Notes under the pieces: model-generated
The model's input: only the letters and a program-made list of their open reading frames with translations
Told to the model about the DNA's origin: nothing
The model's database searches: none
Position numbers and translations under genes: made by a program
DNA from: a virus
Virus record (IMG/VR): IMGVR_UViG_3300008110_000166
Location: 1-25,379 of that record
Length of the DNA: 25,379 nt
Strand: one strand, 5' to 3'
Shown: in pieces, positions 6,336 through 19,883 of the stretch
How positions within the stretch are numbered: position 1 is the stretch's first letter
Layout of the letters: every line of letters begins with the position of its first letter

Positions 6336-6962
6336 ATGACAACACTGGTTGCTATACAGGGTGATGGCTTTGCTTTTGCCTGCGTAGACTCCCAGGTCTC
6401 AGATGTCAGCGACGATGGCTACGCAACACAAATCGCCACATTGAGAGAGTCATCTTCCAAGTTGGGGTATAACGGCAGGTATCTACTGGGTGCTGCCGGA
6501 GATGTACGAGCAATCAACATTCTTCACCATGCCTTCAACCCACCCGTCGCGCCGCCAAATCTCAAAGGAAAGAAGCTAGACCAGTTCGTTACAGTTAAAT
6601 TTATCCCAAGCCTCAGAGAATGCTTTGAAGCACAGGGATACGCAAGCGCCGATAACGAAAACAAGACCCATGTTGCCGAACACGGCTCAGTCATCTTTAT
6701 GGCGATAAACGGAACTATTTACATCATTGACGGAGACTACTCATGGATATCGGACGTCAATGGAATGTACGCGATTGGCAGTGGAGCACAGTATGCGCTA
6801 GGGGCGCTGCATGTACTGACACCGAAATCCAAGATGACTATGGCTACAGCCAAGAAAATTGGCATCAAGGCGCTGGCGACAGCAGCCAAGTTCGACCCCT
6901 ATACTGGCGCTCCATACCATTCCTTTACTAACGGCACAGAGAAGAAGCCAAGAACAACCTAA
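6336..6962 (+). CDS. Ntn-hydrolase, proteasome beta / HslV-like peptidase
   Basis: The 208-aa protein begins MTTLVAIQ, matching the HslV/proteasome-beta start in which the Thr exposed after Met removal is the nucleophile. D18 (Asp17 in mature numbering), K42 within SSSKLGYNGRYLLGAAGD, and YAIGSGAQYALGALH (the Gly-Ser-Gly active-site loop) fit the family in order. No propeptide is present. Length is slightly above that of HslV. It follows the metallophosphoesterase set by two bases and ends at a hairpin terminator. No ATPase partner of the HslU type is seen nearby. It may degrade host or phage proteins or act in head maturation; those roles are guesses. Confidence 0.82.
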   Translation: MTTLVAIQGDGFAFACVDSQVSDVSDDGYATQIATLRESSSKLGYNGRYLLGAAGDVRAINILHHAFNPPVAPPNLKGKKLDQFVTVKFIPSLRECFEAQGYASADNENKTHVAEHGSVIFMAINGTIYIIDGDYSWISDVNGMYAIGSGAQYALGALHVLTPKSKMTMATAKKIGIKALATAAKFDPYTGAPYHSFTNGTEKKPRTT

Positions 6963-7653: not shown

Positions 7654-7989
7654 ATGTCCCAACAAAAAAAGGGTAAAAAAAATACCCCAATTAGTTCTTC
7701 GTCAGATATACAAAAAAACGACTGGTTTGAACTAGCTGCATGTAGAGGGAAAGGGCAATTAATGTTCCCCAAAGAACATAAGGATATTACCTACATTGCT
7801 CAAGCGAGGGCTATCTGTAAAGCCTGTCCGGTGAAGAAGACCTGCCTGGAGTACGCCTTAGAGTTTCCACCTGCAGATATGCATGGGGTATGGGCTGGGT
7901 TGACCAGTAGGCAACTAGCTGCAGAGCAGAGAAGAAGAAAGATAAAGCCAATCAGGCCAACATTGGCGCAGATGTGGGGAGACCAATGA
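7654..7989 (+). CDS. WhiB-family Fe-S transcription factor
   Basis: The 111-aa protein has the complete WhiB signature: C30, then C55-x2-C58-x5-C64 (ICKACPVKKTCLEYAL), the GVWAGLT turn at 78-84 and a basic C-terminal tail (QRRRKIKP). Four Cys would hold a [4Fe-4S] cluster. WhiB proteins bind the primary sigma factor and alter promoter choice in actinobacteria, and phage copies such as WhiBTM4 can down-regulate host whiB genes. The family is essentially confined to actinobacteria and their phages, so this gene is the best host indicator in the window. It could act on the shared promoters of the right arm, but that is speculation. Confidence 0.95.
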   Translation: MSQQKKGKKNTPISSSSDIQKNDWFELAACRGKGQLMFPKEHKDITYIAQARAICKACPVKKTCLEYALEFPPADMHGVWAGLTSRQLAAEQRRRKIKPIRPTLAQMWGDQ

Positions 7990-8707: not shown

Positions 8708-8943
8708 AAAGGGAAACCTAGCACGAAGATAATGCGCAAAAAGTGCAGAAAATTGACCAAAACGAGGATTCCTGAGAGTGCCATCAAAAACAGTGCAAAA
8801 AAGACGAAAAAGTTTGGACTCAGTCCAGATGTTGGCTGTGCCAGGGCTCCCGGAAGAAAAGGGCGAAAAAAGGCTGAAAAGCTTGCGCCCGCCCCTGTTT
8901 TTAGTTTTTTAAAAAATTTTGTTGTTGTTGTTGTGCGGTTCAT
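8704..8943 (-). CDS. Small Phe/Leu-rich membrane protein
   Basis: The 79-aa product has a basic N-terminus (MNRTTTTTKFFKKLK) and a long hydrophobic C-terminal half (FFVFFALFLMALSGILVLVNFLHFL), probably one or two membrane helices. The ATG shares a base with the stop of the replisome-organizer-like gene (TGATG) and its stop overlaps the next start (ATGA). The coding strand contains A/T homopolymer runs (TTTTTTAAAAAA) where slippage could occur. The function is unknown; it might tether replication proteins to the membrane, but there is no direct sign. Confidence 0.65.
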   Translation of the reverse strand: MNRTTTTTKFFKKLKTGAGASFSAFFRPFLPGALAQPTSGLSPNFFVFFALFLMALSGILVLVNFLHFLRIIFVLGFPL

Positions 8944-9434
8944 CAGGCCGGCGTCTCTTCGGTTGGTGCGTTCTCTACAATCACGTACTTCTCGCGCTCG
9001 AGCCGCTCTACGTTCTTCTCGTATACGCGCACGAAGACTTCTCTGTCTCCGTTCGTGTGCATGTTGTATGCCGATTCCCCTAATTCTTTAAGGGTATTTC
9101 TTAATGCCTCATCGAATGGGGGTCTTTCTGTTTGGGCACCAGAATTTACCTCTCTTATTACGGACGTAAAAATACCCCAAGCGGAATACCCATCTAAAAA
9201 TGGGGGTATTTTTGTTTGCATATCTATTGTGGCGCGTCGTACGTCGCCCGGCCTGGGCATGAACTTCTCGTGTGTGGCGAGTCGGATAAACCCGCGCTTT
9301 GCGTCCTCGTACTCCAGGTCGTGCAGGAGTTCGAACCAGGCGCGGTAGACCGTCTGCTCGTCGATGATTAACAGTTTCTGGTTATATGTTGCATATACCT
9401 GTTGGACGAGTTCTATGAGTTCGGTCTTTTTCAA
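8943..9434 (-). CDS. Replisome organizer / helicase-loader-like protein
   Basis: The 163-aa protein has the layout of small phage replication proteins of the G39P / helicase-loader group. An N-terminal helical domain (ELIELVQQVYATY...VYRAWFELLHDLEYEDAKRGFIRL) is followed by the hallmark MPRPGDVRRATIDM. A Glu/Arg-rich C-terminal helix probably contacts the helicase. It uses a TTG start whose first bases overlap the stop of the upstream gene (TTGA). No helicase or primase is in the window, so its partner would be elsewhere or host DnaB. The family assignment is by pattern memory. Confidence 0.72.
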   Translation of the reverse strand: MKKTELIELVQQVYATYNQKLLIIDEQTVYRAWFELLHDLEYEDAKRGFIRLATHEKFMPRPGDVRRATIDMQTKIPPFLDGYSAWGIFTSVIREVNSGAQTERPPFDEALRNTLKELGESAYNMHTNGDREVFVRVYEKNVERLEREKYVIVENAPTEETPA

Positions 9435-9835
9435 AAGGGGTCTGCTCCAGATTCTTTATTGAAACGTTCGTGTAATTCTAGAAATCTATCAATTTGTTTG
9501 GGTCCTCTGAGGATGAGCTCGATGTCGTCGTAGATGCGGTTCTGGGGGTTCCTGCCCATATGCCACTCTGAGAACTTACATCCCTCTATTGCGCGCTTGC
9601 AGTCTTCTACCCCATAGTCGAATATGGCAGCACCTATGGCTACGGTGCGGATGTGATTAAGCACGGAGTTCTTGCGTTTCCCCATTGTTTGTACCCAGTG
9701 GTCGAAGACAATCTGAATAGCGTCTTTTGAGACCTTTTTATATTTGGCTGATTTTTGTTGGGTCTCTATACGTGGGCGTTTTTGTGGGCCGTTTTTCTTT
9801 GGGGTATTAAAATCGGGGAATAATTCTTCGGACAT
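9431..9835 (-). CDS. Phage replication-initiation-like protein
   Basis: From the ATG at 9835 (GGAAAGGA at ideal spacing) the 134-aa product has a basic N-terminus (NTPKKNGPQKRPRIE). A helical domain follows (IQIVFDHWVQTMGKRKNSVLNHIRTVAIGAAIF), then a C-terminal motif (GRNPQNRIYDDIELILRG...IDRFLELHERF). That last motif is typical of small replication proteins near the helicase loader in actinophages. It is the first gene of the five-gene leftward operon ending at 8072. The Shine-Dalgarno lies inside a copy of the GGTGGTGGAAAG repeat. Confidence 0.7.
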   Translation of the reverse strand: MSEELFPDFNTPKKNGPQKRPRIETQQKSAKYKKVSKDAIQIVFDHWVQTMGKRKNSVLNHIRTVAIGAAIFDYGVEDCKRAIEGCKFSEWHMGRNPQNRIYDDIELILRGPKQIDRFLELHERFNKESGADPF

Positions 9836-9843
9836 AGTATTCC

Positions 9844-9857
9844 TTTCCACCACCGAA
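9844..9857 (-). promoter_or_regulatory. GGTGG-motif copy at the replication operon ribosome-binding site
   Basis: On the - strand TTCGGTGGTGGAAAGGA runs into the Shine-Dalgarno of the 9835 gene. It matches the core of the dispersed asymmetric motif GACGGTGGYGGAAAG but lacks the leading GAC. A protein bound here would block translation or early elongation into the replication operon. Confidence 0.45.
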
Positions 9858-9982
9858 TTGTAGACAGAGTTATCCTTAAGCCTCTGTCGTATCTCGACGT
9901 TTTCTCATTTCCGTTTTTGTTTATCTTGGAAGGAAGATGCGGCCCGTGTTTGAGTGGAGACATTCTTCAGGTCAAACCCTTA

Positions 9983-9999
9983 CCCCTCCTTTGGAGGGG
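9983..9999. terminator. CCCCTCC/GGAGGGG hairpin
   Basis: A perfect 7-bp GC-rich stem with a TTT loop lies in the long leader of the replication operon, 150 bases upstream of its first gene on the - strand. No T-run follows in either direction. It could be an attenuator or part of a structured RNA. Confidence 0.35.
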
Positions 10000-10146
10000 G
10001 GTCTGGGGGGAACCTTTAGCTTAAATCCCATTTTGGGCATGCCAAAGAGAACCCTCGGACTCCCCGAGCGTTGCAAAAGATGCAGTTAGTTGTAGGGCCT
10101 ACATATACATCGGTAGCGAACCGACGGGTGAGAAGTTAGCACGTCC

Positions 10147-10163
10147 TTTCCACCACCGTCAAA
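10147..10163 (-). promoter_or_regulatory. TTGACGGTGGTGGAAAG motif, possible -35 region
   Basis: A full copy of the dispersed motif. Its TTGACG could serve as a -35 hexamer: TAACTT (TANNNT) follows after exactly 18 bp on the - strand, the same spacing as in the promoter family of the right arm. If so, a regulator binding the motif would cover the -35 box. Confidence 0.5.
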
Positions 10164-10307
10164 CACAGAAGCAGAAATTTTCAATATTTTTTTGGCAGCT
10201 TGCCGGCCAGGAAAAGTGGGTTCCCCGGCGGGGCTTTAGGGGCGTGATATATTCTATGCTCACGGATGCGAGGTGGGTTTCCCCCTTCTTGTCTCACTAA
10301 GTATCCG

Positions 10308-10364
10308 GCCCCAGGGTTGAAGGTAGTTCGTGTTTGTAGGTGGCGCGACTAACTCCCCTGGGGC
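10308..10364 (-). terminator. GCCCCAGGG/CCCTGGGGC stem-loop after the 10375 gene
   Basis: A perfect 9-bp GC stem closes a 39-base loop, beginning 11 bases after the stop of the leftward gene at 10375. The gene-end position suits a terminator for that gene, although the large loop and missing T-run are unusual. A structured RNA is the alternative. Confidence 0.45.
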
Positions 10365-10374
10365 ACTTTCGCTT

Positions 10375-10746
10375 TTAGCCCTGGTCTGGCTTCTTCCACC
10401 ACCGACGCTTGGTTAGTTCGTCGAATAGGTCTTGCATTGCCTGTTGATTAACTGGTCCGTCTTTAGGAATGTCGAGATTAAACAAACTTGATTTAATAAA
10501 CATCTGGCTATTCTTTAGACCCTGGGACGTTCTGGCCGGCTGCGAATAATTCTGTTTTTTTCCGATTTTTTCTTCGAGCTCGTCGATGCGAAATTCTGCA
10601 GAAATCAAGTCATTTCCAACTTCGAAGATGTCACGGTTCAAAATGTAGTGAGAATCTTTAATTTCTTTAAGCCGAAGATGCACGTATATCAAATCCAGCA
10701 AGTTCAAGATTCCCAGGCCGGCCACAAAAATCATCAAAAAATTCAT
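10375..10746 (-). CDS. Membrane-anchored coiled-coil protein
   Basis: The 123-aa product has a single N-terminal membrane helix (FLMIFVAGLGILNLLDLIYV), then a long amphipathic helix (KEIKDSHYILNRDIFEVGNDLISAEFRIDELEEKIG) and a polar C-terminus ending KRRWWKKPDQ. The start at 10746 is chosen because AAAGGA precedes it at eight bases. A longer frame to 10839 would translate a GGTGG-motif copy as FIDGGGR and is judged to be leader. Unknown function; the architecture resembles phage spanin-like or membrane-tethered accessory proteins. Confidence 0.65.
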   Translation of the reverse strand: MNFLMIFVAGLGILNLLDLIYVHLRLKEIKDSHYILNRDIFEVGNDLISAEFRIDELEEKIGKKQNYSQPARTSQGLKNSQMFIKSSLFNLDIPKDGPVNQQAMQDLFDELTKRRWWKKPDQG

Positions 10747-10805
10747 CTTTTTATCCTTTTCTATTCCGGCATTCCGGAGCTCAGAACTGTATGCGGAACG
10801 GGTTC

Positions 10806-10824
10806 TTCCACCACCGTCAATAAA
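10806..10824 (-). promoter_or_regulatory. TTATTGACGGTGGTGGAA motif upstream of the 10746 gene
   Basis: A full-length copy of the dispersed motif lies about 60 bases upstream of the coiled-coil protein start. TTGACG may be a -35 box, but the nearest TANNNT (TACAGT) is 23 bp away, which is too far. It is therefore more likely an operator or stoperator-type site than the core promoter. Confidence 0.45.
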
Positions 10825-10964
10825 AACTGATGCTGCCATGGTTCAAAAATCCGATTTTTTTGAACTAAGCATCCGGTTGATGCTGCGGTAATAATTTCTC
10901 CTATTGCCATAGTGTTAATAGTCCAAATCTGCTGGGGATATCCCTCAGCTCGACATCAAAATGT

Positions 10965-11558
10965 TTACTTTTTCTCAGTTTCTGCCGCCGGCAAATCAAG
11001 CAAGAACCATTGTCTTTCCCACATCATTCCGATGGCAGAGTACCCAATCACATCGATGAAGTTATCCACCACCGATTCGTTCTCTGGGACTCGACCTGAC
11101 GTCAGGAGGTTCTCTAAACGCGCGACTTTATCGTGACTCCTCACGAGGAGGCCAGCACGGCCGAATCTTGCAATATTCTCATGGCCGTAATCGCGCTGCT
11201 TTCTTACAAGAATGTCAGTTATTTGATTAACTAGCTCGAGGAGCTCAGGACCTTCATCCGGGAAATCTTTAAAAATATTGTTCTTTTTGCCGGCCCTGGC
11301 CGCCAGGCTGCCGAACGTTCTCCAGAATTCTGCAGCTTTTACAGTTCCGACGAAGCTCTTCGAGCCAGGTCCCATTTGGTCGATGACGTAGTCGATGTAC
11401 CCGCGGAGGTCTTTAATCTCTCCGGTGCCGCCATCTTTAAAATAAGCCAGAATTTGGTAGACACACGTGCGCGCAGCATCAGCCCAATCTTTTGGAACTT
11501 CAGCTGATGTCCTTTCCGCCACCGTCGAAAAACTAGTGATGTTTTCTGTATTGCTCAT
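10965..11558 (-). CDS. DUF1599/MazG-like nucleotide-metabolism protein
   Basis: The 197-aa protein carries the helical motif VRKQRDYGHENIARFG...VRSHDKVARLENLL...VVDNFIDVIGYSAIGMMW (about residues 120-185). This matches the DUF1599 / Nmad1 family of phage-encoded MazG-like proteins, in which Glu and Asp residues of such helices coordinate Mg for nucleotide hydrolysis or modification. The N-terminal 100 residues are unassigned. The start at 11558 overlaps the upstream stop (ATGA) with GGGGAG nearby. A role in nucleotide-pool control is family-based inference. Confidence 0.72.
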   Translation of the reverse strand: MSNTENITSFSTVAERTSAEVPKDWADAARTCVYQILAYFKDGGTGEIKDLRGYIDYVIDQMGPGSKSFVGTVKAAEFWRTFGSLAARAGKKNNIFKDFPDEGPELLELVNQITDILVRKQRDYGHENIARFGRAGLLVRSHDKVARLENLLTSGRVPENESVVDNFIDVIGYSAIGMMWERQWFLLDLPAAETEKK

Positions 11559-11989
11559 TCGAATTCTCCCCACGTAGATGGACGGTCATGATAACAGCTT
11601 GCGACCTCATCGACAAGTTCGCCGACACGTTGCTCCCAGAGTTCATCACGGAGCCCCGCATCCTCCTCTTCCGTTTCTTGGACAATCTGGTCAATGAAGT
11701 CCCTGTTGTATACAGCAATGACAACGTCATCCGTCGCGCCAGGAAATATCTCTGGACCGCGCTTTCCATTAAGTGCTGATGGAGGCGCCCAAATAGCTTT
11801 GTATACGACATCTCCATCTGAAGAAACAAAGATGACATTCGAGTCTTTATCATCTGTTTCATCGAGTTCTGAGCTGATTGTGTTTTCTAAGTCACGTGAA
11901 ATTCCTGCGCGCCGCACGGCCGCAAGGAGCTCATCTTTTGACTCGAATGTTGTAGAGAATTCGAATCTCTCGTCCTCAGGGTCATTCAT
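11555..11989 (-). CDS. Acidic hypothetical protein
   Basis: A 144-aa very acidic protein (ELDETDDKD, QETEEEDAG). It has alternating beta strands in the middle (NVIFVSSDGDVVYKAIWAPP, DDVVIAVYNRDF) and a helical C-terminus. I recognise no family; the charge resembles DNA-mimic proteins but so do many phage proteins. It starts with AGAGGT upstream and its stop overlaps the DUF1599-like start, so the two are translated together. It is divergent from the gene at 12076, with only about 85 bp between them. Confidence 0.65.
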   Translation of the reverse strand: MNDPEDERFEFSTTFESKDELLAAVRRAGISRDLENTISSELDETDDKDSNVIFVSSDGDVVYKAIWAPPSALNGKRGPEIFPGATDDVVIAVYNRDFIDQIVQETEEEDAGLRDELWEQRVGELVDEVASCYHDRPSTWGEFE

Positions 11990-12075
11990 CTGGTTACCTC
12001 TGTCAAGTGTTGTGGGATAATAAAAAATAACGCGTCATCCACATGGCCCATGGGCCCACGAATAATATCTTGTCT

Positions 12076-12447
12076 ATGGATAACACTACACGCTTCAATG
12101 CATACATCAAAGCCCTGCAGCAATTTTCTACTCGTGAAGGACATTGCAATGTTCCTGCTGTTCATGTAGAAACCGTTGATGGAAACGACATCACTCTGGG
12201 AGCATGGGTTGGCTATGTGCGTCAGCGTCGTAGAAAAAACCAACTTTCTGATGACAGAGCTGCGGCCATCCAGGCTGTTTCTGGTTGGCAGTGGGGACCG
12301 CTGAAGCCTGGTCCGGCCACAGATTCCTCCAGAAATACCGAAATTTTGCAAATGCGCGCTGCGGGTTCTTCGCTCCGCCAGATTGCAGATAAGTTTGACC
12401 TCAGCCGCCAGAGAGTCCATCAAATTGTAAAAAACGTGCAATTTTGA
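12076..12447 (+). CDS. Orphan helicase-associated domain fused to a sigma-like HTH
   Basis: Residues about 4-65 match the helicase-associated (HA) domain: FSTREGHCNVPAVHV, LGAWVGYVRQRRRKNQLSDDRAAAIQAVSGWQW. They are normally found in tandem at the ends of DEAD-type helicases, here alone. Residues about 82-120 (NTEILQMRAAGSSLRQIADKFDLSRQRVHQIVKN) are a sigma-70 region-4-like HTH. Two DNA-binding modules and no enzyme suggest a regulator or DNA-binding accessory. The start may instead be 12043, adding 11 residues. It is the only + strand gene of this kind amid leftward genes. Confidence 0.78.
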   Translation: MDNTTRFNAYIKALQQFSTREGHCNVPAVHVETVDGNDITLGAWVGYVRQRRRKNQLSDDRAAAIQAVSGWQWGPLKPGPATDSSRNTEILQMRAAGSSLRQIADKFDLSRQRVHQIVKNVQF

Positions 12448-12473
12448 TACCTGGCAGCCGGCAGCTTTGACAT

Positions 12474-12663
12474 CAAAAAGATGAACTTTTTGCAGAAAAG
12501 TGCAGCTGAACTTCGACGGAGATTTAGTTAAAAAAGTTGATTTTTTCTTCGCCGCAGCATCCCGGGGGGTGGAGAGAAAAACTGCAAAAAAGTTTGGTTT
12601 TTGTCCTGCGCCGGCAGCTGCTCGAACGTTCGCAAAATCTTCAAAAAGTTCACTTTCTTGAAG
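12474..12663. repeat. Array of four A-tract/T-tract hairpins spaced 55-57 bp
   Basis: Four short inverted repeats lie at 12474-12492 (CAAAAAG/CTTTTTG), 12530-12546 (AAAAAA/TTTTTT), 12585-12603 (CAAAAA/TTTTTG) and 12639-12663 (CTTCAA/TTGAAG with inner AAG/CTT). Their centres are about 12483, 12538, 12594 and 12651, that is 55, 56 and 57 bp apart. Loops are 5-6 bases and mostly GTT-rich; GC-rich spacers separate them. Regular phasing near 5.3 helical turns suggests bent DNA or iteron-type protein sites, for example a replication origin, although successive terminators cannot be excluded. Confidence 0.6.
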
Positions 12664-12700
12664 GGTGTAACAGAGTTTAGATGCTGAGTAGACTCTCATC

Positions 12701-12961
12701 ATGGAAATAAACAATCCCTTTCCCCCACCGTCAATAAAAGAAGAGGTAGTCACAGTGTCAACTGCGAAAATCCTTGGCGGCCTTGCAATGTTCGTTATTG
12801 TTGCTGGCCTGTACGCCGTCATCTTGAACGGCTTGCTGTTCATCGTCGAGCGCGGCGGCGTAATCGACTGGGACTTTAGTCTCTTTGATATTTTTCTTGG
12901 CGTACTTTTCGTACAATTCATTCGTGTTCTGGATGCTGTCTGGCGGCGTCGCCTTCAATAA
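12701..12961 (+). CDS. Small two-helix membrane protein
   Basis: The 86-aa product has two membrane segments (about 25-50, LGGLAMFVIVAGLYAVILNGLLFIV, and 62-76, DIFLGVLFVQFIRVL) and a basic C-terminus (WRRRLQ). The start is uncertain: the ATG at 12701 lies next to a GGTGG-motif copy translated as FPPPSIK, while a GTG at 12753 has GAGG upstream and would skip the motif. It overlaps the end of the convergent gene by 44 bases. Function unknown. Confidence 0.6.
   Translation: MEINNPFPPPSIKEEVVTVSTAKILGGLAMFVIVAGLYAVILNGLLFIVERGGVIDWDFSLFDIFLGVLFVQFIRVLDAVWRRRLQ
12719..12738 (-). promoter_or_regulatory. TTTATTGACGGTGGGGGAAA motif
   Basis: A near-consensus copy of the dispersed motif, read on the - strand, with one change (GGGGG in place of GGYGG). 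It overlaps the putative 5' end of the rightward membrane gene. The orientation is the same as in all other copies although the local gene is on the other strand. Confidence 0.4.
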
Positions 12962-18318: not shown

Positions 18319-18537
18319 TCAGATTCCCTCAAGAACCTCTGAAGGCTTGACCTTGAGTGCCTTGCAGACACGAATGAGTGTGGACAGGTTCGGTGAGAAG
18401 TGTCCGTTCTCAATGCGGTTCACTGTCTTGCGCTCAATTCCTGCCTTCTGTGCCAGCATGTCTTGGGAAAGTTCTCGGTCAAGACGAAGAGCCTTGAGGC
18501 GAGCGCTAACACGAAGTTCTTTCTTGTCGGTATTCAT
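18319..18537 (-). CDS. XRE-family HTH regulator
   Basis: The 72-aa protein is a single Cro/CI-type HTH: LKALRLDRELSQDMLAQKAGIERKTVNRIENGHFSPNLSTLIRVCKALKVKPSEVL, with the classical SQxxLAxxxGIxRxTVxxIEnG recognition pattern at about 24-46. It has no oligomerisation or peptidase domain. AAGGAGCAAT precedes the ATG. No family promoter lies directly upstream, so it is probably co-transcribed with the 19258 gene from P4. It could be a Cro-like repressor of the surrounding promoters; this is inference. Confidence 0.88.
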   Translation of the reverse strand: MNTDKKELRVSARLKALRLDRELSQDMLAQKAGIERKTVNRIENGHFSPNLSTLIRVCKALKVKPSEVLEGI

Positions 18538-19853: not shown

Positions 19854-19883
19854 AGCGTACACATGGCACAGGTCAGATACCAA
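19854..19883 (-). promoter_or_regulatory. Family promoter P5 (19824 gene)
   Basis: TTGGTA, 18-bp spacer starting TCTGACCTGTG, TACGCT; leader with CCTACTACTAAGGAG. A GACGGTGGCGGAAAG copy lies just upstream of the -35. Confidence 0.8.

Follow-up and report, generated by a model that had tools for sequence, protein, structure and literature searches.

A gap of 253 bp without genes (12448-12700) in the phage sequence analysed here holds a regular array of four A-tract/T-tract inverted repeats, which is non-random and confined to one region. Judged from alignments of related loci it is also evolutionarily maintained, and the reading preferred here, held with a confidence somewhat short of even, is that of a putative DNA-level, multi-copy protein-binding locus in the replication module, read by the shape of its DNA. 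For uncultured phages of actinobacteria, little has been established about the cis-acting sites of replication and regulation, and the array is a compact, comparative and testable candidate. The term “window” denotes the whole stretch of DNA that was analysed, 25,379 nt, corresponding to bases 1-25379 of a 90,420-bp IMG/VR virus record.

The array and its genomic setting

The gap separates the gene for an HTH protein with a helicase-associated (HA) domain from that for a small two-helix protein. The main features are as follows, with the bit scores of units 0 to 4 taken from a motif that excludes the window's own sites:

8943-9434, - strand: helicase-loader-like protein (phrog_2289, phrog_9804)
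9431-9853, - strand: replication-initiation O-like protein (repO), matching the C-terminal part of family profiles
10729-10981: three further sites of the same motif, starting at 10729, 10842 and 10955, twice 113 bp apart (113 being twice 56.5)
12043-12447, + strand: HA and homeodomain-like/sigma-70-region-4-like HTH protein, 134 aa
12429-12445: array unit 0, AAAAAACGTGCAATTTT, covering the final codons of the HA-HTH gene, 17.6 bits
12474-12492: array unit 1, CAAAAAGATGAACTTTTTG, motif match on the - strand, 23.6 bits
12530-12546: array unit 2, AAAAAAGTTGATTTTTT, 23.8 bits
12585-12603: array unit 3, CAAAAAAGTTTGGTTTTTG, 21.3 bits
12640-12662: array unit 4, TTCAAAAAGTTCACTTTCTTGAA, 20.0 bits
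12689-12694, + strand: putative -10 box TAGACT, 6 nt before the ATG at 12701, of a possible leaderless promoter (alignment by eye)
12701-12961, + strand: small protein of 86 aa with two apparent membrane helices (by eye)
18319-18537: Cro-like protein

The four repeats in the gap, centred at about 12483, 12538, 12594 and 12651 and hence 55, 56 and 57 bp apart, are present as an earlier note on this DNA, made from the letters alone, had described them. Its description of the gap as otherwise GC-rich holds for the spacers (54% GC), but not for the gap as a whole, which at 44% lies below the genome's 48%. Each unit forms a roughly 23-bp palindrome with the consensus TTCAAAAAAGTnAnTTTTTTGA (42 sites aligned), most of the information being in the tracts. 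Unit 0 lies about 46 bp from unit 1, and most array-bearing relatives also have a weaker unit at this position.

Chance is a poor explanation for these sites, as had been supposed. The gap has four, against a mean of 0.40 and a maximum of three in 500 dinucleotide shuffles (none of the 500 reaches four), and a scanning motif built only from relatives' sites, with those of the window left out, has its top matches in this region, although the definition of the site class itself came from the window and preceded the comparison with relatives. The nine best matches in the 90-kb phage (10729, 10842, 10955, 11264, 12422, 12472, 12523, 12579 and 12640) include the five array units, score at least 17.6 bits and all fall within 10.73-12.67 kb; the next-best site scores 15.2 bits. 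In relatives of 172 and 160 kb, the strongest motif sites are likewise in the same single gap. The trio spaced at 113 bp extends between the start of g10375 and the 3' end of g10965, and was not seen above 17 bits in one array-bearing relative, L015.

The genes flanking the two short rightward genes (HA-HTH and small membrane protein) run mainly leftward. They include the replication-initiation-like genes that had been noted about 3 kb to the left, which prove to be an O-like initiator and a helicase-loader-like gene. A WhiB protein (7654-7989), a proteasome-subunit-like protein (6336-6962) and a D-Ala-D-Ala carboxypeptidase gene, also found in the phage, together point to a phage of an actinobacterial host. 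Neither the HTH nor the helicase-loader protein has a match in cultured phages.

Conservation in relatives

With the HTH protein as query, 22 and then 80 viral loci were retrieved from IMG/VR relatives, the second scan having turned up 253 relatives. The module order (whiB, helicase-loader-like, repO, g10965, g11555, HTH, small membrane gene, cobT-like, AAA) is kept down to about 36-40% protein identity. In most relatives without the array, the HTH gene and the next ORF overlap or abut; in the window and in loci L014-L027, the HTH and small membrane genes are separated by about 190-334 nt that hold the array. Arrays in this same gap occur in at least eight genotypes, which are monophyletic and form one clade with two sublineages, and the regular spacing recurs in homologous loci, where its absence would, by the earlier note's own test, have refuted that note's interpretation. 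Among more distant relatives that keep this gene order, most have no comparable array, in a scan whose p-values are inflated by the choice of the best window and serve for ranking only. A similarity search with the gap against 50,697 phage records gave chance matches only (E of 0.8 or more). The bare spacing pattern, sought in viral contigs, is not specific: the matches listed are probably mostly due to chance in AT-rich genomes.

Within the clade, the arrays have three to six units, with spacings of about 43-47 or 52-58 bp and with spacers that diverge. Identity in aligned pairs is 81-100% for the A/T tracts, 64-97% for the spacers and 54-89% for the cores; in the two close pairs (L016/L017 and L020/L026) the corresponding values are 92-94%, 79-85% and 64-65%, and the difference between tracts and spacers gives a Fisher p of 0.012. 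The 4-5 bp core between the tracts is thus the least conserved part of the unit, and cores also differ between units while the tracts stay. Part of the regularity may stem from copying, since L015 has a recent 54-bp tandem duplication.

In two sister phages, L251 and L065, there is no array in the gap after the HTH gene, and four units lie in a different gap, where a conserved structured RNA (see below) precedes them by a few tens of nt and a leftward gene has its 3' end. Their spacings are 46.5, 43.5 and 63 bp in L251 and 46, 60.5 and 45.5 bp in L065; a third phage, L028, has fewer and weaker sites, also downstream of the conserved RNA. CTTCTG stands before most L251 units, and the same flank is found on some units of L017-L019, which suggests that these arrays are related modules. 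At both positions, what immediately precedes the array is a unit transcribed rightward, the HTH gene in one case and the conserved RNA in the other, within the leftward block. The best-supported reading of these comparisons is that the array can occupy one or the other of two places within the replication module.

Spacing and bending

The earlier note had taken the spacing to be near a whole number of helical turns. At 10.5 bp per turn the window's spacings are 5.24, 5.33 and 5.43 turns, and this part of the description falls away. Over eight arrays the two spacing classes are about 10 bp apart, most intervals amount to 4.3-4.5 or 5.2-5.5 turns, and the spacings, taken modulo 10.5 bp, are clustered (R = 0.69), offset by roughly one third of a turn; this test can be suggestive only, because the intervals share ancestry and are not independent, and periods from 9.5 to 12 bp give the same R.

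Curvature was predicted with a wedge model. The expectation of bent DNA was borne out locally, single units reaching the genome's 99.99th percentile over lengths of 31-42 bp, but not at long range, where the region reaches only the 98th percentile over 168-220 bp. Because the spacings are 5.2-5.4 turns rather than whole turns, the strong local bends do not add up: in this model the array is a set of strong single bends, not one long curve.

A proposed shape-read protein-binding array

On the preferred reading, the array would be a docking platform for a DNA-binding protein, probably one that recognizes each unit mainly by shape: paired A- and T-tracts are expected to be rigid, locally bent and narrow-grooved, and recognition by shape is made probable by the retention of the tracts while the core between them drifts. 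Because the units recur at the turn fractions given above in most intervals, the angular offset between proteins bound to neighboring units would stay roughly constant, at about one third of a turn, and such proteins could stack, perhaps cooperatively, into one twisted nucleoprotein complex. The most likely purpose of such a complex would be to act as a transcriptional boundary or regulator within the replication module, preferred because both array positions directly follow a rightward transcription unit within a block of leftward genes.

As for the protein, in six phages of the group there was no match to Lsr2 above the cut-off and no HU/IHF gene. The HA-HTH protein is unlikely to be a dedicated array binder, as its recognition helix, LSRQRVHQIV, does not vary among relatives, whether or not they have the array.

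A more ambitious version is doubtful: that the array represents a new type of movable cis-acting nucleoprotein locus (an origin, a centromere-like element or a boundary element), with units recognized by A-tract shape at a constant fraction of a helical turn, a complex winding as a superhelix, and one of two module positions occupied in sister lineages. The array offers a defined unit, defined spacing classes, natural variants of three to six units, a relocated version and array-free relatives, and could show how a multi-protein complex is specified by the shape of A-tracts rather than by exact sequence.

Alternative explanations

Another possibility, suggested by the origin-like layout that had been pointed out earlier, is that the units are iterons: a phage initiator would bind them and open the AT-rich units, and the O-like protein and helicase loader would be recruited. 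Some of that layout stands, with O-like and helicase-loader-like genes about 3 kb away in a gene order conserved in relatives and with the top motif sites all in one 2-kb stretch of the genome. Known iterons are spaced more closely than the array's 45-57 bp. Most relatives sharing the same replication genes have no array, which is confined to a clade and shifted or weaker in the sister phages, and RepO (140 aa) matches only C-terminal profile segments (positions 172-274 of 315 and 106-222 of 248), the N-terminal iteron-binding domain not being seen. GC skew, proposed as a source of origin evidence, follows gene direction rather than the array and lends no support. The array's several inverted repeats, their bent A-tracts and the nearby O-like and loader genes do recall ori-lambda, in which inverted-repeat iterons and bending are both found (PMC5043065). 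The array differs from a lambda-type origin in its wide spacing, the lambda iterons being close-packed, in its absence from most relatives, and in its position, about 2.6 kb from repO rather than inside the O gene; sister-phage arrays are nearer to repO, but still outside it. The non-coding DNA adjoining repO (9854-10374) shows conservation in those relatives that were inspected, and would be the better origin candidate. Because the array is clade-specific while that DNA is conserved, an origin is less favored: possible, but rather unlikely.

A further alternative is a role as an upstream activating region, UP-element-like curved DNA or a set of operators, for the putative leaderless promoter of the small membrane gene. 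In the array clade this gene is split from the HTH gene, a TAnnnT-N6/7-ATG arrangement recurs before it (alignment by eye), and the last unit is centered about 50-60 bp before its start codon. The sister arrays, on the other hand, are placed between two 3' ends, that of the conserved RNA and that of a leftward gene, rather than in front of a promoter, and four to six units over 250 bp are more than an UP element needs. Strong local A-tract bends and a last unit near a putative promoter (in the window's clade) are shared with phased A-tract DNA and UP elements; units about 5.3 turns apart, whose bends are not additive, and an array also found away from promoters are not. A promoter role is judged quite improbable, although in the window's clade alone, where the array is upstream of the putative leaderless promoter, it may apply. 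Confinement to one clade, the variation from three to six units and the 54-bp duplication in L015 could also reflect a largely neutral or selfish AT-rich repeat, spread by tandem copying in a weakly constrained gap. The greater conservation of tracts than of spacers, the persistence of tracts where cores diverge between units, and two spacing classes about one helical turn apart argue against this, and make it more improbable still. Finally, the units come after the 3' ends of rightward transcription units, and the + strand of the window's gap folds better than its shuffles (z about -3.0), as would be expected of terminators or a structured RNA. The relatives, though, share no common fold, their minimum-energy structures differing and their + strand z values (-0.3 to -2.65) being mostly unremarkable; the stems are A-U-rich, and no terminator-like site, with a GC-rich stem and a U-run, is found within 12448-12700. 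Rfam has no match for the gap, and an element acting as RNA, the least probable of these explanations, is highly improbable.

Several known kinds of site were also compared with the array. A coding function was rejected, as spacings of 55, 56 and 57 bp are not multiples of three and shift the frame; an antisense ORF at 11986-12921 runs through the HA-HTH gene and was taken as spurious. The stoperators of L5-type actinophages are asymmetric 13-mers scattered through the genome and bound by the phage repressor. The array resembles them in having many copies of a short, probably protein-bound site in a phage genome, but its site is a palindromic A/T-tract, and its copies are clustered in 2 kb of 90 kb (10.73-12.67 kb, at 17.6 bits or more). 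Silencing sites of the H-NS-like proteins Lsr2 and CgpS share with it AT-rich DNA in an actinobacterial phage. Nucleation by these proteins depends on long AT stretches with multiple A/T steps (PMC7002338), whereas the AT stretches of the array are 6-8 bp long with 0-1 A/T steps, against a genome mean of 2.4 for lengths of 6-9. Such sites also have a distinct drop in GC near a transcription start; here the drop is moderate, the 50-bp minimum, 32% at 12520, being at the 1.9th percentile and about 180 bp before the putative transcription start. By published rules, nucleation of this kind is not supported for the region.

Other elements near repO and elsewhere in the window

The conserved RNA mentioned above is a structured RNA candidate at 10250-10380 (+ strand), next to repO in many relatives. 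It has a promoter-like TGnTAnnnT, followed by a hairpin whose loop is C-rich, CCCCCTTTC, a long GC-rich stem that carries GTAGGTGG close to its own loop (invariant in 22 aligned sequences), and a U-rich end. Compensating changes occur in the stem (CCCCAGGG/CCCCTGGGG and CCCTTGGG/CCCCAAGGG); Rfam has no match for it. A second conserved non-coding block upstream of repO, at 9976-10140, from CCTTTGGAGGGGGTCTGGGGGAACCTTT onward, is found in relatives with and without the array. Together, these two elements would be the better candidate for an origin or an RNA in this region.

A repeated motif, TTTCCACCACCGTC, is present in + orientation at 9845, 10148, 10394, 10806, 11514, 12720, 19892, 22387 and 24332; elsewhere in the 90 kb there are only matches with two mismatches. 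Read on the - strand, GGTGGTGGAAAGGA precedes the start codons of repO and other leftward genes, and may be their ribosome-binding region; the C-rich loop of the RNA candidate could pair with it. In the right part of the window, another repeated motif, CAGG(A/T)CAGATACCAA, is found at 19880, 22375 and 24320, just before copies of the CCACCGTC motif.
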